From an uncultured bacterium (GTDB taxonomy: Bacteria > Hydrogenedentota > Hydrogenedentia > Hydrogenedentales > CAILVY01), in the NCBI GenBank assembly GCA_937951485.1, contig CALEDJ010000017.1, positions 1-47,097 of the forward strand: a DNA stretch of 47,097 bases, written 5' to 3'. Every line of letters begins with the position of its first letter. Within the stretch, counting starts at the first letter, position 1. The notes beneath the pieces were generated by a model. That model did not search any database and was not told the DNA's origin. It saw nothing but the letters and a program-made list of their open reading frames with translations. The translations under genes and the position numbers were made by a program. Shown here piece after piece: positions 37,523-45,743 of this stretch.

Positions 37523-38743
37523 TCAGCGCTTCATATTAAACCGCACCCACTCTTTGAACCGGCGATAGGTGCCGGAAGGGCCCTGCTCCAGGAGTGTTTT
37601 TCCGACACGGTGGACAATTCCCATCCATCGCTTGAGCGCGGGTTCCGTGTCGCGGCGCAGATATTCGGTCAGAACGATGCGCATTTCCTCCTTGTCCGCA
37701 AACAGATTCGATGGACATCGGACACAGTACGCAGGCGGTTTGCCGTCAAACATCCCTTCCCGAACACGACTCATATAGGCACCATTCCAAACCTGGCTGA
37801 ACGGCATGTCTTTGATGGACAGCGCCTGAGAATCATAGAAAGCGCAGCAGGGACCCAGTGCGCCGTCCGGCATGATGGCTGCGCTCAGCCAGGGTTCATA
37901 GCACATCGCCCCGGACAGTCCCAAGCGTTGTGCAGGGCGCACGTTGCGCTGCATGTTGGTGCTCTCTTCAATAAGTTCAATTCCCAGAAACCGCGAGTAG
38001 TTCGTTTCAATCCCAAGTTCTCCGGCCCTTTGAATCCCTTTGTGCACCATCTCCGGAAAGGCGGCCTTTTGCTCCGGGCTCAGCGCCAGCCGCGCCGTTT
38101 CATCGTCTTCGACTATCAGGCCCGACAAAAACACCACTACATCAGGGCTGATGGATGCCGCAAGTTCGACGAATTGGTCCAACTTGTCATAGACAAGGTT
38201 CGTAATTGTAGCGTTGAGATACAAACCGGGTGTCGTCTGTCCCCGCCTCTGCTTGTGTGACGCAAATCGTTGCATGTTGGCAATGGCTTTGTCGAAGCCG
38301 CCCCCCCGAATCTGATCGTTGATTGCCGCATTGGGGCCGTCTATGCTGAATATGATTCGGACAACGCTCCGCTCCATAATCGTTTCCGTCATCTCGGGGG
38401 AAAACAACGTGCCGTTGGTGTGAATCCAACTGGTCATGCCATACGCCGTCATCTTATCAATCATTCGAAGCATCAGTGAGCGACGTACAAGCGGCTCGCC
38501 GCCGCCCAGAAAAATCCAGTGACGCGTACCCATTTCCGCCGCTTCATCCACCAGCCGGAGCCAACGGGCGTCGGGCAGTTCGGAAGCATACGTACGGTCC
38601 CACTCGGCCCATTGCCGCCAGCAATGGCGACAATTCAGGTTGCATCGGTTTGTCAAAAATGCGCTGATGCGCTCAGGTCCCGGCGGCGTTGGACAGGCAC
38701 CGGACCAGAGGCGCATGCGGCGAAGCGCATCTACAGGTTCCAT
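37523..38743 (-). CDS. Radical SAM/SPASM protein (first of three paralogs)
   Basis: This 406-residue protein has the SAM-cluster motif CNLNCRHC (C34, C38, C41), GGGEP for SAM binding and HTNGT. It has C-terminal cysteines in the pattern C-EPW...PCC...CxxC that should hold auxiliary clusters (SPASM or twitch type). Such enzymes modify peptides, sugars or enzyme residues by radical chemistry in the cytoplasm. The ATG at 38743 is chosen because the resulting N terminus (MEPVDALRRMRLWSG) aligns with the paralogs (MQPVMAHRLVRWQNG); a TTG 19 codons upstream has no ribosome site. The C terminus ends in a basic tail (GTYRRFKEWVRFNMKR). It is divergent from the tandem paralogs. No precursor peptide was found nearby. 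Confidence 0.85.
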   Translation of the reverse strand: MEPVDALRRMRLWSGACPTPPGPERISAFLTNRCNLNCRHCWRQWAEWDRTYASELPDARWLRLVDEAAEMGTRHWIFLGGGEPLVRRSLMLRMIDKMTAYGMTSWIHTNGTLFSPEMTETIMERSVVRIIFSIDGPNAAINDQIRGGGFDKAIANMQRFASHKQRRGQTTPGLYLNATITNLVYDKLDQFVELAASISPDVVVFLSGLIVEDDETARLALSPEQKAAFPEMVHKGIQRAGELGIETNYSRFLGIELIEESTNMQRNVRPAQRLGLSGAMCYEPWLSAAIMPDGALGPCCAFYDSQALSIKDMPFSQVWNGAYMSRVREGMFDGKPPAYCVRCPSNLFADKEEMRIVLTEYLRRDTEPALKRWMGIVHRVGKTLLEQGPSGTYRRFKEWVRFNMKR

Positions 38744-38863
38744 TAGCGGCAGTGTCCTCAGGAAGGGATGTTTGAAATCAGTGGATCGGATTGCTTGCAA
38801 AGATTAGATCGTTGCTTGAAACAGTCTGCCATACCAACTGCGTGACAAGCAATCCCTTTCAAC

Positions 38864-38979: not shown

Positions 38980-40209
38980 ATGCAGCCGGTAATGGCCCAT
39001 CGCCTTGTTCGCTGGCAAAATGGGGCATCTCCGCCACCTTGGGAATTGATGATTTGCCCAACGCATCGGTGCAATCTGAAATGCGGTATTTGCGCGCGCA
39101 GTTGGGAGGAACACTCCCATCCCCTGCTGTTCGATGAAGTGCCTGATGAACGCTGGCTGCCACTGGTGGACGAAGCGGCGGCCTTGGGGGTGCGATATTT
39201 CAGTATTGGCGGGGGCGGAGAACCGACCCTGCGCCGTGAACTGGTCATAAAGATATGCGCCAGGGCCAAAAGCCTCGGCATGGAAGGACACCTGCAGACC
39301 AATGGCACCTTGTTGCGCGAAGAAGATATAAATACGCTCGTCGCCTTGGGGTGGGACCACGTGACCATCAGTCTTGACGGGCCGACGCCGTCCATCAACG
39401 ACGCCATCCGATACAAGGGAGCCTTCAGTGAATCCGTAAAACGCATAGAGATGCTGCGCGCGGCGAAAAAGCGGCAGAAGGCTTCGCGACCTGACATTCA
39501 GGTTCACATGGTCCTCACGGCGCTGAATTGCGAGCATCTGTCGGCAATGGTGGCGTTTTGTCTTGAACTTGGGGTTGAGGCGCTTTTCGTCTCGCCCCTG
39601 ATCGAATATAGCCCCGACATGAAAGCGTTTGTTTTGAGTCCTCAACAACGCGGCGAACTGCCCGGTTATGTTGAAAAGGCAATTGCACGGGCCGATGCGG
39701 CCGGACTCCCACACAATCTCGAAAACCTCTTGCCAACGCCCAATGCAGACACAGACACCTTCACCGGCGATACGTCCCTTTCCTCCCAGTGGCCCGCCGG
39801 CCATATCGCCGGGGTGCGGTGTCTGGAACCCTGGCGGGGCTTGGTTGTCTCTTCAGGCGGCCATGCGCTTCCATGTTGTCACTTCTGGGAGGAAAAGGCG
39901 GACAGCATTCGGAGCAACAGCCTGTCCGATGTCTGGTTGGGACCATACATGAGTGAATTCCGGCAGAAAATGCGCAATGGGCCCCTGCCGGAGCCTTGCC
40001 GGACATGCGGTTTTCCGGACAGCCTGACGCACCGCAAACTGAGGGAACGCGTGCGAGAGGCGGCCCTGTCGAGCGGCAATGTACCGGGGCCATGGCGCGG
40101 TTTCGTCGCAAAGGCCTGGAATAGTGTCCGCACGCATGGACTTGCCGGCAGTGTTCAGCGCTATCGGCAGTGGCGCGCCATCCGCCGCGCCCTGCGCAAC
40201 GAACCGTAG
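38980..40209 (+). CDS. Radical SAM/SPASM protein (second paralog)
   Basis: This 409-residue protein has the radical SAM motif CNLKCGIC (C31, C35, C38), GGGGEP, QTNGT and a SISLDGP-like barrel strand (TISLDGPTP). C-terminal cluster cysteines lie in CLEPW, PCCHFWEE and PCRTCGFPD. It ends with a conserved basic segment, KAWNSVRTHGLAGS followed by WRAIRRAL, shared with the next protein. The ATG at 38980 has GGGAG eight bases upstream. It is the first gene of a plus-strand run of radical SAM and glycosyltransferase genes, so a modified glycan or lipid-linked product is a reasonable idea, but the substrate is unknown. Confidence 0.86.
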   Translation: MQPVMAHRLVRWQNGASPPPWELMICPTHRCNLKCGICARSWEEHSHPLLFDEVPDERWLPLVDEAAALGVRYFSIGGGGEPTLRRELVIKICARAKSLGMEGHLQTNGTLLREEDINTLVALGWDHVTISLDGPTPSINDAIRYKGAFSESVKRIEMLRAAKKRQKASRPDIQVHMVLTALNCEHLSAMVAFCLELGVEALFVSPLIEYSPDMKAFVLSPQQRGELPGYVEKAIARADAAGLPHNLENLLPTPNADTDTFTGDTSLSSQWPAGHIAGVRCLEPWRGLVVSSGGHALPCCHFWEEKADSIRSNSLSDVWLGPYMSEFRQKMRNGPLPEPCRTCGFPDSLTHRKLRERVREAALSSGNVPGPWRGFVAKAWNSVRTHGLAGSVQRYRQWRAIRRALRNEP

Positions 40210-40299: not shown

Positions 40300-41520
40300 G
40301 TGTTGCCTGTCATCACTTCGCGCCTGTTGCGTTGGCAGGACGGCCAAACGGCCGGTCCCTGGCGCTTGAAGGTTTTCCCAACCTACCGGTGCAACCTGGA
40401 TTGCGGCATTTGCGTCCGCAACTGGCATCGGACGCATCCGATCCTTCTTGACGAACTGCCGGATGAGCGCTGGCTGCGTCTTGTGGATGAAGCGGCGGCA
40501 ATGGGGGTGCGTGCCTTGATCATCGGGGGAGGCGGGGAGCCGATGCTGCGCAGCCGACTGGTGCGCAAGATGTGCGTCAAGGCCAAAGAATACGGCATTT
40601 CAGGAAGCCTCCAAACCAACGGAACGAACCTGAGCGGGGAAACCATCGAGACATTTATCACAACAGGTTGGGACTATGTAACAATCAGCATTGACGCGCC
40701 CGGCGCAGACATCAATGACGCCATCCGCAACAAGGGGGTTTTCGCACGAACGGACGAGGCGTTGCGCGCCCTGCATGAAATGAAGCAGCGGCACGGGAGC
40801 GTACTTCCCAATGTGGCCATCCACATGACGATTACATCCCTGAACTACAACTGTATTGAGGACATGGTGGATTTTTGTACCGCCCGCGGCGTGAATATGC
40901 TGTCCGCCAGCCCATTGCTGGAAGTCGGCATGGAAGATTCGGGGTATGTCCTGAATGCGGAACAGCGCGCCGCCTTGCCGGGCCAGTTGAAAAAGGCCAT
41001 TGAAAAGGCCGACGCCCGCGGCCTGCCACACACTTTGAACAGCCTGCTGATGATCGAGAATGCACACTGCGCGAATCCAACGGACACCCAAGGCTCCAGT
41101 TTTCCGAAAGGTCATCTTGCCGGCGCGTTATGCCTGGAGCCTTGGACTGCATTGACCATTACTTCCAGCGGTCATGCCGGGCCATGTTGTTTTTTCTGGG
41201 AAGAACACGCCGACAGCATCCGGGATAAGACCCTGCAGGAAGTCTGGACGGGTCCTTATCTCTCGCAATTCAGACAGCACATGCGCGACGGCCGGCCCCA
41301 TCCCATTTGCCTGAACTGCTACTACCCGGACACACAGGAACACAGGGAATTGATGGATTGCCTGCGGCAGACTGCGGCGGTGCGCCCGAGAATTTTCCCG
41401 GATTGGCGCGCCCTGCCCGGAAAAGCCTGGAATAGCGTCCGCCGTTATGGATTGCACGGCAGTTGGCGGCGCTTTCGCGAGTGGCGCGCCATCCGGCGCG
41501 CCTTGAAGGACGATGCCTGA
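40300..41520 (+). CDS. Radical SAM/SPASM protein (third paralog, tandem duplicate of the second)
   Basis: This 406-residue protein keeps every motif of its neighbour in the same places: CNLDCGIC (C31, C35, C38), GGGGEP, QTNGT, CLEPW, PCCFFWEEHADSIR, CLNCYYPD and the tail KAWNSVRRYGLHGS plus WRAIRRAL. The two clearly arose by duplication but have diverged well beyond recent copying. The start is the GTG at 40300 with GAGGAG eight bases upstream. Ninety bases separate it from the previous gene. The shared tail is basic and aromatic, suitable for contact with membrane, nucleic acid or a partner enzyme. Confidence 0.86.
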   Translation: MLPVITSRLLRWQDGQTAGPWRLKVFPTYRCNLDCGICVRNWHRTHPILLDELPDERWLRLVDEAAAMGVRALIIGGGGEPMLRSRLVRKMCVKAKEYGISGSLQTNGTNLSGETIETFITTGWDYVTISIDAPGADINDAIRNKGVFARTDEALRALHEMKQRHGSVLPNVAIHMTITSLNYNCIEDMVDFCTARGVNMLSASPLLEVGMEDSGYVLNAEQRAALPGQLKKAIEKADARGLPHTLNSLLMIENAHCANPTDTQGSSFPKGHLAGALCLEPWTALTITSSGHAGPCCFFWEEHADSIRDKTLQEVWTGPYLSQFRQHMRDGRPHPICLNCYYPDTQEHRELMDCLRQTAAVRPRIFPDWRALPGKAWNSVRRYGLHGSWRRFREWRAIRRALKDDA

Positions 41521-41607: not shown

Positions 41608-43980
41608 ATGAAGGAAGGACGTACCATCAGTTTTTCCGCCGACCATGAGGCCCCGTTGCAGGGAGTAACCGCGCAGGGCGCAACATCGCAAGATGCCGTG
41701 ACGCCGGCATCTTTTGGGATGCGCCCACGGCGGGGGCTTGTCCTTTCGCATAACCGCCGCCGGCATTATTTCCGCGAGAAGGACATGCATCGCTGGCTGG
41801 CTTATGCTGTCCGTGTTCTGGATTGCCTGAAAGTGGATGTGTTGGCGTGGGGACGTGTTCCAAAAAGTCTGGTTTCCACGATCTGGTATGCGCGCGAATT
41901 TGCCGTGCCGGTTTCGCTGCGCACCGACGCCGGCGCGCCGCCGGATGACCTGGAATACCTGGCCGCGGAAGGTCTGGCCGATGTGTTCCTCTGTCCTTGC
42001 TCCCTTGCGGACGATTCCTGGCGTTCATGGCTCGAGGCATGTCGCCGACTGGGGTTGCCGATTCGTTTGCAACTGGTGATGCCACGCTTGGATACACGGA
42101 CCGCCGAACAGTATGCCGAGATTTGGGCAGCATCAGGGGTCCGATCGATCAATCTGGTGCTTGAGGACCCATTTCAGCCATCCCGGCCATGCAGGGACGC
42201 CGGGGAAGGGCGGGCATTGGCCGATTCGTGCAGCGCACTGGCCGAGGCATTGATGAAGCATACTGTTGAGGCGAACCTCGTTGGATTTCCGCCGGAATTG
42301 CTGAATCCGGCCGCGCGGCCCTGCGCCATGAGTCCCGATGCTTTCTATTGCGACTACCAACAGTACGATTTGACGGCTCATCGTTTTGCGATTCGGCTGT
42401 ACGACCGGCGACCTGAGATTGTCCGGGCCGCATTGCTGATTGCAATGAAACGGCATATGGTTGCACCGGATGTCACCGATCGATGGCTTACGGAGGCGCT
42501 TTTTGTGCGGGCCAGACCGTTGTACCGTGCGGCGCTGTATTGCACGAAACGCCGGCGCGCCCGGCGCGGCACGCGGTTATCGCGCGCAACACATGACCCG
42601 CAGGGCGCATTTCTTGAAAAACCCCGCATGACTCCCGGTTTCTCGGACGAAGACCGCCGGCGCGCCGCACGCCTCCTGGGCGGGTATGCGCCGCCTGTGA
42701 TTGACACTGGCCCCGGCGAACCCATCCTGCGACCGCGTTACGTTGACCCGCTGGACGAAGATCGCATGCGGCAAAGCGCGCTTTGGCTTGATCTGGCGCG
42801 TGAGGCCCGCGAATGGCAGCAGCGCAAACCGCCGGACCGGGTTTGCGACATGAACGAGTGGGGTTCCGAACAGGCCTTCATGGTGCCTGAGTATGGCGCT
42901 ACTGCCTGGTTGACCTTCTTCGCCGGGGAACGTCTGTCCACCACGATTGACCATCTCCGTCCCCCGTTCATGGTTTCCGTGACCGTAGGCGGCGGCATGG
43001 TGGAGGCGGTTGGATTCCATCTCAGTCCGTCGTTCGCGCTGATGTGTCCTTTAATAGAGGCGCGGCACACCGTAACCCTCTACGTGCGCGGCGACGGGCG
43101 CTATGTCTTGCTTCGAGATGATGTTCCCGTGGAGCCGGTCCGGCTCCCCGGAAAATATCCCGCGCCGCTTCGCGCGCCGTCTTTCGTGAAACTGCGCGTG
43201 GCCGCCTGGGACATCGAAGAGCGGATTTCGTTCTCGCCCTTGCGCCTTTGGAAAGAAGCGCCTTCGGAACGTGAGTCCGGCCCGTCACCAAAATATTCGG
43301 TGGTGGTGTTCTGCACGCGCTTCGCGCGCCGGCTTGCCGCAGCGCTGCAATGCATTGCGCACCAGCAGGATTTCGACACCGCGCAATTGGAGGTGGTTGT
43401 GGGGTATGTGCCGGGGCTTGACGCCACGGAGGACGTGTTGGAATCGCTGCGCCTGGCGCATCCAGACCTCCGTATCATCCACGCGCCGTTTCCCCGGCAG
43501 AATATCCGGTCCAAGGGGTATGTATTGAACCAGTGCATGGGCATGGCGCGGGGCGCATGGATACTGCTGCTGGACGCGGACACGCTTCTGCCGCCCCATA
43601 TGTTCACTGTGCTGGACCGGGTGGAAGCCGGACAATCGTTCATTTTCCCCGAAGGCCGCGCCATGCTGGACCCGCAGACCACGGCGAGGGTCCTGTTGGG
43701 CGAAATCAAGCCCTGGCTGTCATGGAGGGCGTTGCTTCAGTCCGCACGGGAAGTGCGCCGGGACGAAGCGCTGGGCGCGCCCATCGGCTACTGCCAATGC
43801 TTTCGTCGCCAATGCCTTGAGAAAGTACGGTACCCGGAATACGAACATTTTCAGGGCGCAGACTACGAGTTTGCCACGGCCCTGCAAAAGCATTTCGGCA
43901 AAGAATATCGGCTCGACTTCCCTGTACTGCATCTGGACCATGAAGGCAGCCAATGGTTCGGAACGGAAAGGCATTTTTGA
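41608..43980 (+). CDS. Fusion of a cysteine-less radical-SAM-like domain and a family 2 glycosyltransferase
   Basis: This 790-residue protein has three parts. Residues about 40-300 read like a radical SAM barrel (VSLRTDAGAP, GLADVFLCP, LRLQLVMPRLD-like strands). Where CxxxCxxC should stand there is LSHNRRRHYF, so no SAM cluster can form. Residues about 412-560 form a beta-rich domain of unknown family. From about 560 the protein is a GT-A glycosyltransferase of family 2 type, with YSVVVFCTRFARR, RSKGYVLNQCMG and the metal-binding DAD at 656-658 (LLLDADTLLPP), ending near a GADYEF acceptor-side motif. It should transfer a sugar from a nucleotide donor in the cytoplasm. The radical-SAM reading of the N-terminal domain is inferred from strand pattern only. 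The ATG at 41608 has a modest ribosome site; an internal ATG at 41719 is possible. Confidence 0.72.
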   Translation: MKEGRTISFSADHEAPLQGVTAQGATSQDAVTPASFGMRPRRGLVLSHNRRRHYFREKDMHRWLAYAVRVLDCLKVDVLAWGRVPKSLVSTIWYAREFAVPVSLRTDAGAPPDDLEYLAAEGLADVFLCPCSLADDSWRSWLEACRRLGLPIRLQLVMPRLDTRTAEQYAEIWAASGVRSINLVLEDPFQPSRPCRDAGEGRALADSCSALAEALMKHTVEANLVGFPPELLNPAARPCAMSPDAFYCDYQQYDLTAHRFAIRLYDRRPEIVRAALLIAMKRHMVAPDVTDRWLTEALFVRARPLYRAALYCTKRRRARRGTRLSRATHDPQGAFLEKPRMTPGFSDEDRRRAARLLGGYAPPVIDTGPGEPILRPRYVDPLDEDRMRQSALWLDLAREAREWQQRKPPDRVCDMNEWGSEQAFMVPEYGATAWLTFFAGERLSTTIDHLRPPFMVSVTVGGGMVEAVGFHLSPSFALMCPLIEARHTVTLYVRGDGRYVLLRDDVPVEPVRLPGKYPAPLRAPSFVKLRVAAWDIEERISFSPLRLWKEAPSERESGPSPKYSVVVFCTRFARRLAAALQCIAHQQDFDTAQLEVVVGYVPGLDATEDVLESLRLAHPDLRIIHAPFPRQNIRSKGYVLNQCMGMARGAWILLLDADTLLPPHMFTVLDRVEAGQSFIFPEGRAMLDPQTTARVLLGEIKPWLSWRALLQSAREVRRDEALGAPIGYCQCFRRQCLEKVRYPEYEHFQGADYEFATALQKHFGKEYRLDFPVLHLDHEGSQWFGTERHF

Positions 43981-44019: not shown

Positions 44020-45252
44020 ATGCGCCTGGCTTTTGTTGACCTGGTCTTCTCGTGGCCGCCTCTTGGCGGCGCGCCCCTGGACTTGTACTACACCATTTCG
44101 GGGCTGCAGGAACTGGGCCATGAGGTCCATTTGTTCTATGGCGCGGAAGTCGAAAACTGGCGACTGGAACCCGTCCGCGAAGACCGGCTTCCATTTCCGG
44201 CCACGCGCCTGCCCTTTACCGCCGCCGAAACAACACCGGAAATCATGAGCGGGCGCTTTCGCGCGGCGGTGGATGCATGGAAACCGGATGTGGTGTTTCA
44301 ATGCTTCGGCTTTTTTATGAAGCCCTATGTTTCACTCGCCTTGTCCCATTATCCCCAGGTGGCCCGCTATTACGCCTATGAGCCGTTCTGTCCGCGCGAT
44401 TACCGGCTCTTCTGGAAAGACAGGACATGCCCCAAGAATTATCTCTCCACCCCGAACGTATGTCGCCGATGCACCGCAAACGCTCTGAGAAGGAATTTTC
44501 TCATGGGGTTGGTCACCGGCTATGCGCTCGAATACGAACGGACCCGGGCCTGGTCGCCCGAATACCACGCCGTCATGCTCGCATCACTGCGATCCTACAA
44601 GGCGATCATCGTCTACAATCACTTCACGAAGCGATTGCTGGAGGGGATCACGGATCGCGTGCACGTCATCGGCGGCGGGGTCCACTTCGAGGACTTTGAT
44701 TATGCGCCGTTACCCGAAAAAGGTCGGAGCGAACGCACCGTCATTTTCATGTCGGGCCGGGCCGATGATCCCACCAAAGGCCTGAAAACCCTCCTGGATG
44801 CCGGAAAACTGTTGTGGCGGGAGCGGCAGGATTTCGAGATTTGGGCCACCCTCCCCGACGACCCCTACCATTACCCCTGGTTCAAGGCGCTCGGCTGGCA
44901 TGACTTCAAACAAATCATGAAGTTCTATCAGACCTCGGATATCTGCGTTACGCCCTCCACGTGGGAAGAACCGTTCGGATTGGTGGCCGTGGAGGCCATG
45001 GCGACGGGGCGCCCGTGTGTCGTGTCGGATGTGGGCGGATTGCAGGAAATCGTCATTCCGGGAGAAACCGGCTACCTCTTCAAGCGACGCAACGCAAAGG
45101 ATTTGGCGAAATACCTGCGCATCCTGTTGGATGACCCCGCCCTGCGTCGCCGCATGGGCGACGCAGGCCGCAAGCGCGTCGAGGAGGTTTACGACTGGAA
45201 GCAGGTCATCCGGCATCATTACCCGCCCCTGCTCGAAAAGGTGCTCCAATGA
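44020..45252 (+). CDS. Glycosyltransferase family 4 protein with cysteine cluster
   Basis: This 410-residue GT-B enzyme has the acceptor half from residue 1 (LGGAPLDLYY glycine loop). The donor half starts near 245, with the EPFGLVAVEAM motif (E317 and E325 as the EX7E pair) and GGLQEIV. Four cysteines at 124, 137, 148 and 151 (the last pair in CRRC) could bind zinc; they lie in a loop insert of the acceptor domain and are not part of the usual GT4 core. It likely adds a sugar to a lipid or protein acceptor at the cytoplasmic face. The stop overlaps the next start by four bases (ATGA). Confidence 0.87.
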   Translation: MRLAFVDLVFSWPPLGGAPLDLYYTISGLQELGHEVHLFYGAEVENWRLEPVREDRLPFPATRLPFTAAETTPEIMSGRFRAAVDAWKPDVVFQCFGFFMKPYVSLALSHYPQVARYYAYEPFCPRDYRLFWKDRTCPKNYLSTPNVCRRCTANALRRNFLMGLVTGYALEYERTRAWSPEYHAVMLASLRSYKAIIVYNHFTKRLLEGITDRVHVIGGGVHFEDFDYAPLPEKGRSERTVIFMSGRADDPTKGLKTLLDAGKLLWRERQDFEIWATLPDDPYHYPWFKALGWHDFKQIMKFYQTSDICVTPSTWEEPFGLVAVEAMATGRPCVVSDVGGLQEIVIPGETGYLFKRRNAKDLAKYLRILLDDPALRRRMGDAGRKRVEEVYDWKQVIRHHYPPLLEKVLQ

Positions 45253-45743
45253 GCGACACAGAACGCATCGGCATATTGTTCAACGAAACCCGGGACGCCG
45301 CGTTGCTGCTCAAGGCCGCGCGCCGTCGCCACCCCGACGCCCGTCTCGTGGCGATACTTTCGCCGCGCGCAGCCGTTCGGTTTCCGGCGCGCGATCTCGT
45401 GGACGAAATCGTGGAGGTGGAATTGTCGCCACTGCGGTTGTTAATCAGAGGCGCTTTCTTTCAAATGGTCGAGGTTCTGCGCAAACAGCGATTCGATCTG
45501 CTTGTATTGCGTTTCCCCACCTTGAAACTAAGACTTCTGGCCGCACTGGTTGCGCCGATGCGATGCGAAATCTGGCTCGCCGGCGGCGTCATCGTTCCGA
45601 CGCCGACCACACCCGGCGCCGCGGTGCGCGGGTATTTCCAGCGGCGATTTACGGGCGTGAAAATGATGGCCCGAATATGGTGCAATGTCTGGTGCTCGCG
45701 CATCCCGCGGAGGCAGGGCCGCGCCGGCGGCGATGCGTCCTGA
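45249..45743 (+). CDS. Small uncharacterised protein, translationally coupled to the GT4 gene
   Basis: This 164-residue protein has a Rossmann-like start (IGILFNETRDAALLLKAA) and a central segment FDLLVLRFPTLKLRLLAALV. It resembles the N-terminal half of a GT-B glycosyltransferase without the donor-binding half. The end (RIWCNVWCSRIPRRQG) is basic. It may be an accessory or membrane-associating partner of the upstream glycosyltransferase; the ATGA overlap supports joint synthesis. The family is not recognised. Confidence 0.6.
   Translation: MSDTERIGILFNETRDAALLLKAARRRHPDARLVAILSPRAAVRFPARDLVDEIVEVELSPLRLLIRGAFFQMVEVLRKQRFDLLVLRFPTLKLRLLAALVAPMRCEIWLAGGVIVPTPTTPGAAVRGYFQRRFTGVKMMARIWCNVWCSRIPRRQGRAGGDAS

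Follow-up and report, generated by a model that had tools for sequence, protein, structure and literature searches.

A glycosyltransferase widespread in Hydrogenedentota is fused to a barrel of predicted radical SAM ancestry that lacks the SAM cluster motif

Introduction

What is a radical-SAM-like barrel without cluster cysteines doing on a glycosyltransferase? The question is raised by a gene on a contig of 47,097 nucleotides from an uncultured bacterium of the Hydrogenedentota; this whole stretch of DNA is called the window here. The original prediction had described an open reading frame lacking CxxxCxxC in which such a barrel is joined to a GT2 domain, and this fusion proved to be real, with homologues in dozens of genomes. 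We give roughly even odds (a probability of about 0.5) that the gene encodes a glycosyltransferase for surface glycans, its dead barrel serving to bind the acceptor or to dock a radical SAM enzyme that modifies the glycan.

Results

The fusion gene and its domains

A chance reading frame can be excluded, as genes 30-57% identical along its length occur in dozens of other genomes and, in the form of a paralogue (37% identity, contig C38), in the same genome. Pfam and NCBIfam scans of the whole 790-residue protein detected GT2 and nothing else, and the remaining layout given in Table 1 draws on alignments and on structure models.

Table 1. Coordinates of the fusion gene, its parts and its neighbours in the window
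Feature	Position	Strand	Evidence or remark
Third radical SAM/SPASM enzyme, opposite strand	37523..38800	-	PF04055 7.9e-20
Candidate partner: radical SAM/SPASM enzyme with an intact CNLKCGIC	38980..40209	+	PF04055 2.9e-21, PF13186 1.1e-09
Candidate partner: radical SAM/SPASM enzyme with an intact CNLDCGIC, ~88 bases upstream of the fusion	40300..41520	+	PF04055 1.9e-22, PF13186 2e-10
Fusion gene (pseudo-radical-SAM barrel, CBM66-like beta-sandwich, GT2)	41608..43980	+	790 aa; single open frame, ATG at 41608, stop at 43980
Radical-SAM-derived barrel with degenerate C-terminal tail (aa 36-365), predicted	41713..42702	+	hhalign to A2, AlphaFold, fold matches
LSHNRRRHYF (aa 46-55), where the CxxxCxxC loop is missing	41743..41772	+	joint alignment with A2
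Middle domain (aa 366-560), helix and beta-sandwich, CBM66-like fold	42703..43287	+	structure model, fold matches
GT2 domain (aa 561-741)	43288..43830	+	PF13641 E 9.7e-11, PF00535 2e-05
DAD metal/nucleotide-sugar motif (aa 656-658)	43573..43581	+	both Asp 67/67
GT4 glycosyltransferase, ~40 bases downstream of the fusion	44020..45252	+	PF00534 2e-30
164-aa ORF overlapping the GT4 stop by 4 bases	45249..45743	+	related loci have comparable ORFs in this position

The GT2 domain with an intact DAD, as originally predicted, was recovered by PF13641 above its cut-off. All 67 aligned family members keep both aspartates of the DxD motif, the GAD aspartate and, in HxDH, both histidines and the aspartate; in the window protein this last conserved motif reads HLDH and lies beyond the GT2 domain, towards the C terminus. 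A PDB search with this domain returned a PglI-like enzyme (E 1.1e-5).

Residues 366-560 form a separate beta-sandwich domain that had been overlooked in the original prediction. The model of this region (pLDDT 93) consists of a helix and a beta-sandwich whose best fold match is CBM66 (Z 10.7 over 122 residues, rmsd 2.6), with other beta-sandwiches within 1 Z; the best matches also include other carbohydrate-binding or lectin-like sandwiches. The middle domain of the window protein matched no Pfam family or PDB sequence, and its relatives gave weak one-off Pfam hits only. On the strength of the model, it is reasonable to suppose that this domain may bind sugar.

The fusion was observed in 64 of the 68 Hydrogenedentota genomes examined, among them all 38 with a completeness of 90% or more and a contamination of no more than 5%. 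Candidatus Hydrogenedentota accounts for all four of the closest named records, one fusion was found among 318 genomes outside the phylum, and a plasmid search found no relative. Tandem pairs of the gene were noticed in four loci (L034, L035, L036 and L056), and in a further locus (L085:1013-3546) the gene lies in two adjacent frames of 579 and 263 residues, which is either a real split or a frameshift.

Ancestry of the barrel and loss of the SAM cluster

A family profile of the barrel (A1) was built from 67 sequences. Besides the fusions, it finds essentially one further kind of protein per genome, a radical SAM subfamily of ~340-540 residues which we call A2. These proteins keep the SAM cluster motif (CNxRCxFC) together with CxxCx5C; A2 matches PF04055 at 5.4e-22, and a scanned member scored far below every NCBIfam cut-off. 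The barrel profile aligned with A2 in hhalign at 99.2% probability (E 1.8e-19) over 305 columns, and the alignment is colinear to its end, PxC and CxxCx5C included. When one pseudo-barrel profile was used throughout, scores of 3e-18 to 4e-23 were obtained for A2 proteins both from this genome and from three genomes that do not belong to the phylum.

The same profile gave the SPASM enzymes of the window scores of only 0.3-1 (hhalign 30%), and a copy of the adjacent genes was rejected as the origin of the barrel. The original prediction had taken it for a dead copy of these neighbours, and this part is not supported: the nearest kin found is A2, which is encoded elsewhere in the genome.

The predicted structure agrees with this relationship. 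Strands alternate with helices in the AlphaFold model of the barrel (mean pLDDT 87.9, ~97 over the barrel itself), and the model forms the partial (beta/alpha)6 barrel of the radical SAM superfamily. When fold matches were realigned by Z, PqqE (12.6), TigE (12.1) and BlsE (11.7) came first, followed by SuiB, HydE and SkfB, with some unrelated or designed TIM barrels within 1-2 Z units of the radical SAM folds. The raw Foldseek list, headed by TIM-barrel aldolases (DmpG-type) and OMP decarboxylase at an rmsd of ~9-10 A, was found to be misleading, as the aldolases drop below the radical SAM folds on realignment. Could the barrel then be a TIM barrel of other descent, with no more than a likeness to radical SAM? 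Pfam scans of the barrels of all 67 members returned no match and no radical SAM family, PDB sequence-profile searches with the barrel gave nothing credible, and other TIM barrels head the raw list; however, such a resemblance would have to account for a colinear 305-column match to A2 that takes in all four auxiliary cysteines of the PxC and CxxCx5C motifs, and we regard it as very improbable. Neither structure prediction nor the profile search with this region on its own brought out another fold or an unrelated TIM-barrel family as the best match. The original claim of a radical-SAM-type barrel thus holds, with the predicted fold aligning best with PqqE, TigE and BlsE and the profile matching A2, and shared radical SAM ancestry is secure, mainly on sequence with the fold in agreement.

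The CxxxCxxC motif is absent from the window barrel and from every one of the 67 aligned members. The loss of the SAM cluster is therefore old and universal in the family, and a sequencing error or recent decay of a single gene is ruled out. LSHNRRRHYF had been put at the CxxxCxxC position, and the location is right; the joint alignment with A2 shows that the loop there is mostly deleted, being ~19 residues shorter than in A2, rather than replaced. The GGE motif after strand 2 is also gone, where IDIQGGEPT of A2 aligns with VDVLAWGRV of the window protein. Since both the SAM-cluster loop and GGE are lost, SAM chemistry has presumably been lost as well.

Auxiliary cysteines and the relation to A2

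All four auxiliary cysteines (PFC and CxxCx5C), at positions matching those of A2, were found in 57 of the 67 members. In the other ten they are missing as a set, with a lone cysteine retained in two. A tree from which these columns had been left out requires at least three losses of the set: in the window's clade with L032, in L051, and in L037/L038. Ligands of a single Fe-S cluster would be expected to disappear jointly in this way. None of the four remains in the window copy, which, judged from its residues, would be able to hold neither a SAM nor an auxiliary cluster in the usual way. The second copy of the window genome (L026:5144-12343) lies in the order Wzm, Wzt, A2 and fusion, and was observed to carry all four. 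L033, on the next branch, has a window-type locus (two SPASM genes, fusion and GT4) yet retains the four cysteines, so the SPASM neighbourhood may predate their loss.

The pattern of the cysteines invites the reading that the barrel is an electron-relay or split-enzyme subunit, in which a barrel with only the auxiliary cluster exchanges electrons with A2, or completes it, in trans, and that the window's clade has secondarily lost this role. Besides the retention of A2-like cysteines in most members and their joint loss in several lineages, there is a precedent, as electron transfer between separate radical SAM proteins was shown in vitro for PapB and QueE (PMC10470005); a relay is therefore possible for the four-cysteine members. 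The window copy, without cluster ligands, is excluded from working this way, and fusions with all four cysteines persist in genomes where the A2 search found none, so that we consider a relay rather unlikely.

A2 was found in 48 of the 68 genomes as against 64 for the fusion, and most of the 20 genomes without a detected A2 keep the fusion. Docking to A2 therefore cannot be obligatory, and A2 as an obligatory partner was rejected. As many fusion-bearing genomes yielded no A2, the barrel probably has a role of its own. The A2-like genes of other genomes sit among glycosyltransferase genes. In one locus outside the phylum (L130:4905-6392), a GT2 domain is fused upstream of an A2-like domain with an intact CNINCEFC, the reverse of the domain order in the window and in an active-looking form; A2 and GT2 have thus been joined on more than one occasion.

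Selection and conserved residues

The dN/dS values in the window's clade are 0.14-0.22 for the barrel, 0.26-0.63 for the tail, 0.05-0.07 for the middle domain and 0.08-0.11 for GT2, and the copy in the window ranks with the most diverged ones. The barrel is still constrained after the loss of all clusters, more weakly than GT2, and the tail that once held the auxiliary cysteines is relaxed in this clade. Barrel and tail being the fastest-evolving parts of a protein that in this clade has lost all its clusters, the barrel might be thought a decaying relic, useless baggage on a working GT2. We hold this to be quite unlikely, as the barrel is kept in nearly all of the genomes, has a dN/dS of 0.11-0.25 and is predicted to fold with high confidence.

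Nearly invariant polar residues of the barrel include R42, D77, S103, R105, D125 and R153. Together with the aldolases at the top of the raw Foldseek list, they could suggest that the barrel is no pseudoenzyme and has become a new, non-radical catalyst, for example one that acts on a sugar in the manner of an aldolase or epimerase. R42, D77, D125 and R153 are, however, common to the barrel and the radical enzyme A2, so these four may be structural. Since the aldolase matches also have a large rmsd and fall below the radical SAM folds, and the barrel evolves faster than the other domains, a new catalyst seems unlikely.

Gene neighbourhood

The original prediction had noted three adjoining, active-looking SPASM enzymes, and intact cluster motifs were indeed observed in all three (CNLNCRHC, CNLKCGIC and CNLDCGIC). 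On the plus strand, gaps of ~90, ~87, ~39 and -4 bases separate the genes between 38980 and 45743, which appear to form a single operon. The GT4 family adjoins the fusion in many genomes and is nearby in 27 of 64 loci, and a Pfam scan of one homologue of the 164-residue ORF identified no family. Longest-ORF calling was swamped by shadow ORFs in the high-GC DNA and a composition score was used instead, and the neighbour counts are rough; with this rough gene calling, any of three radical SAM families lies within four called genes of the fusion in only 28 of 64 loci.

In 18 cases the gene immediately upstream of the fusion is A2, and Wzm (ABC-2 permease, PF01061) and Wzt (PF00005) often precede it. 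The order Wzm-Wzt-A2-fusion, preceded by a GT2 gene, was also seen outside Hydrogenedentota (L126:225-5909), where the N-terminal domain of the fusion is shortened, still more degenerate and missed by the barrel profile. In genus g8 (L082:6001-7080; also L076, L079 and L084), another radical SAM gene, which matches SPASM weakly, stands directly upstream in place of A2. Because of this context of Wzm/Wzt, A2, GT4 and other glycosyltransferase neighbours, the fusion probably belongs to surface-polysaccharide synthesis.

Discussion

Proposed function

The preferred reading is that of a surface-glycan glycosyltransferase with a dead barrel kept for binding. The product would be a cytoplasmic glycosyltransferase for a surface polysaccharide, in which the C-terminal GT2 would transfer the sugar and the middle beta-sandwich may hold the growing glycan. 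The N-terminal barrel would be a radical SAM pseudoenzyme of A2 kinship, kept as a binding module which recognises the acceptor glycan, or docks a radical SAM enzyme that modifies this glycan, or both, and modification and chain growth would thereby be coupled ahead of ABC export. We infer the binding or docking role; binding of the acceptor glycan, of a radical SAM partner or of both is the most economical role for the barrel. The two SPASM genes that run in the same direction as the fusion would supply the partners in the window's clade.

A more specific arrangement may be put forward tentatively, although we find it doubtful. An active A2 and the fused pseudoenzyme, of which no more than the auxiliary Fe-S site and the barrel's substrate side would have been kept, might form a two-component radical SAM system for surface glycans that physically couples the radical modification of a sugar to polymerisation by GT2; some lineages, that of the window included, would then have dropped all clusters and taken other radical SAM partners.

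Radical SAM pseudoenzymes seem to be little described, and in the library searched no relevant paper turned up on pseudo-radical-SAM proteins, on radical SAM in Hydrogenedentota or on radical SAM enzymes encoded in O-antigen loci. The present family is phylum-wide, with the SAM cluster gone in every member examined, the auxiliary ligands mostly kept and cluster-free variants occurring naturally. Through it, experiments can directly address the function of auxiliary clusters and ask whether a glycosyltransferase can be steered by a dead barrel of radical SAM type. In addition, an uncharacterised radical SAM subfamily (A2) in polysaccharide-export loci is brought to light.

Comparison with known systems

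The general kind is already known, as the haloarchaeal pseudo-SAM/SPASM protein TIGR04347 is an annotated radical SAM pseudo-family. The likeness was judged by the NCBIfam name alone; the window protein gave no match to this model, and a glycosyltransferase is absent from the model's name. PglI (GalNAc(5)-diNAcBac-PP-undecaprenol glucosyltransferase, PDB 9jma) resembles the N-terminal half of the GT2 catalytic domain, whereas its solved chain, of 306 residues, is too short to contain the pseudo-radical-SAM and sandwich domains as well. The middle domain resembles CBM66 of Bacillus subtilis in its beta-sandwich but has no sequence match to it, so that the likeness would be one of fold rather than of membership of the family.

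The SPASM/twitch enzymes PqqE, SuiB, BlsE and TigE share the partial barrel (Z 11-12.6) and have auxiliary cysteines, as do most relatives of the fusion. In contrast to them, the fusion has neither CxxxCxxC nor GGE, shows the ~19-residue deletion and has lectin-like and GT2 domains attached, and the window copy is without auxiliary cysteines too. A2 is the nearest relative of the barrel found, has PxC and CxxCx5C in common with the fusion family and is often encoded by the next gene upstream; it differs in having kept its SAM cluster and in being normally unfused, the distant GT2-A2-like fusion of L130 being the one exception.
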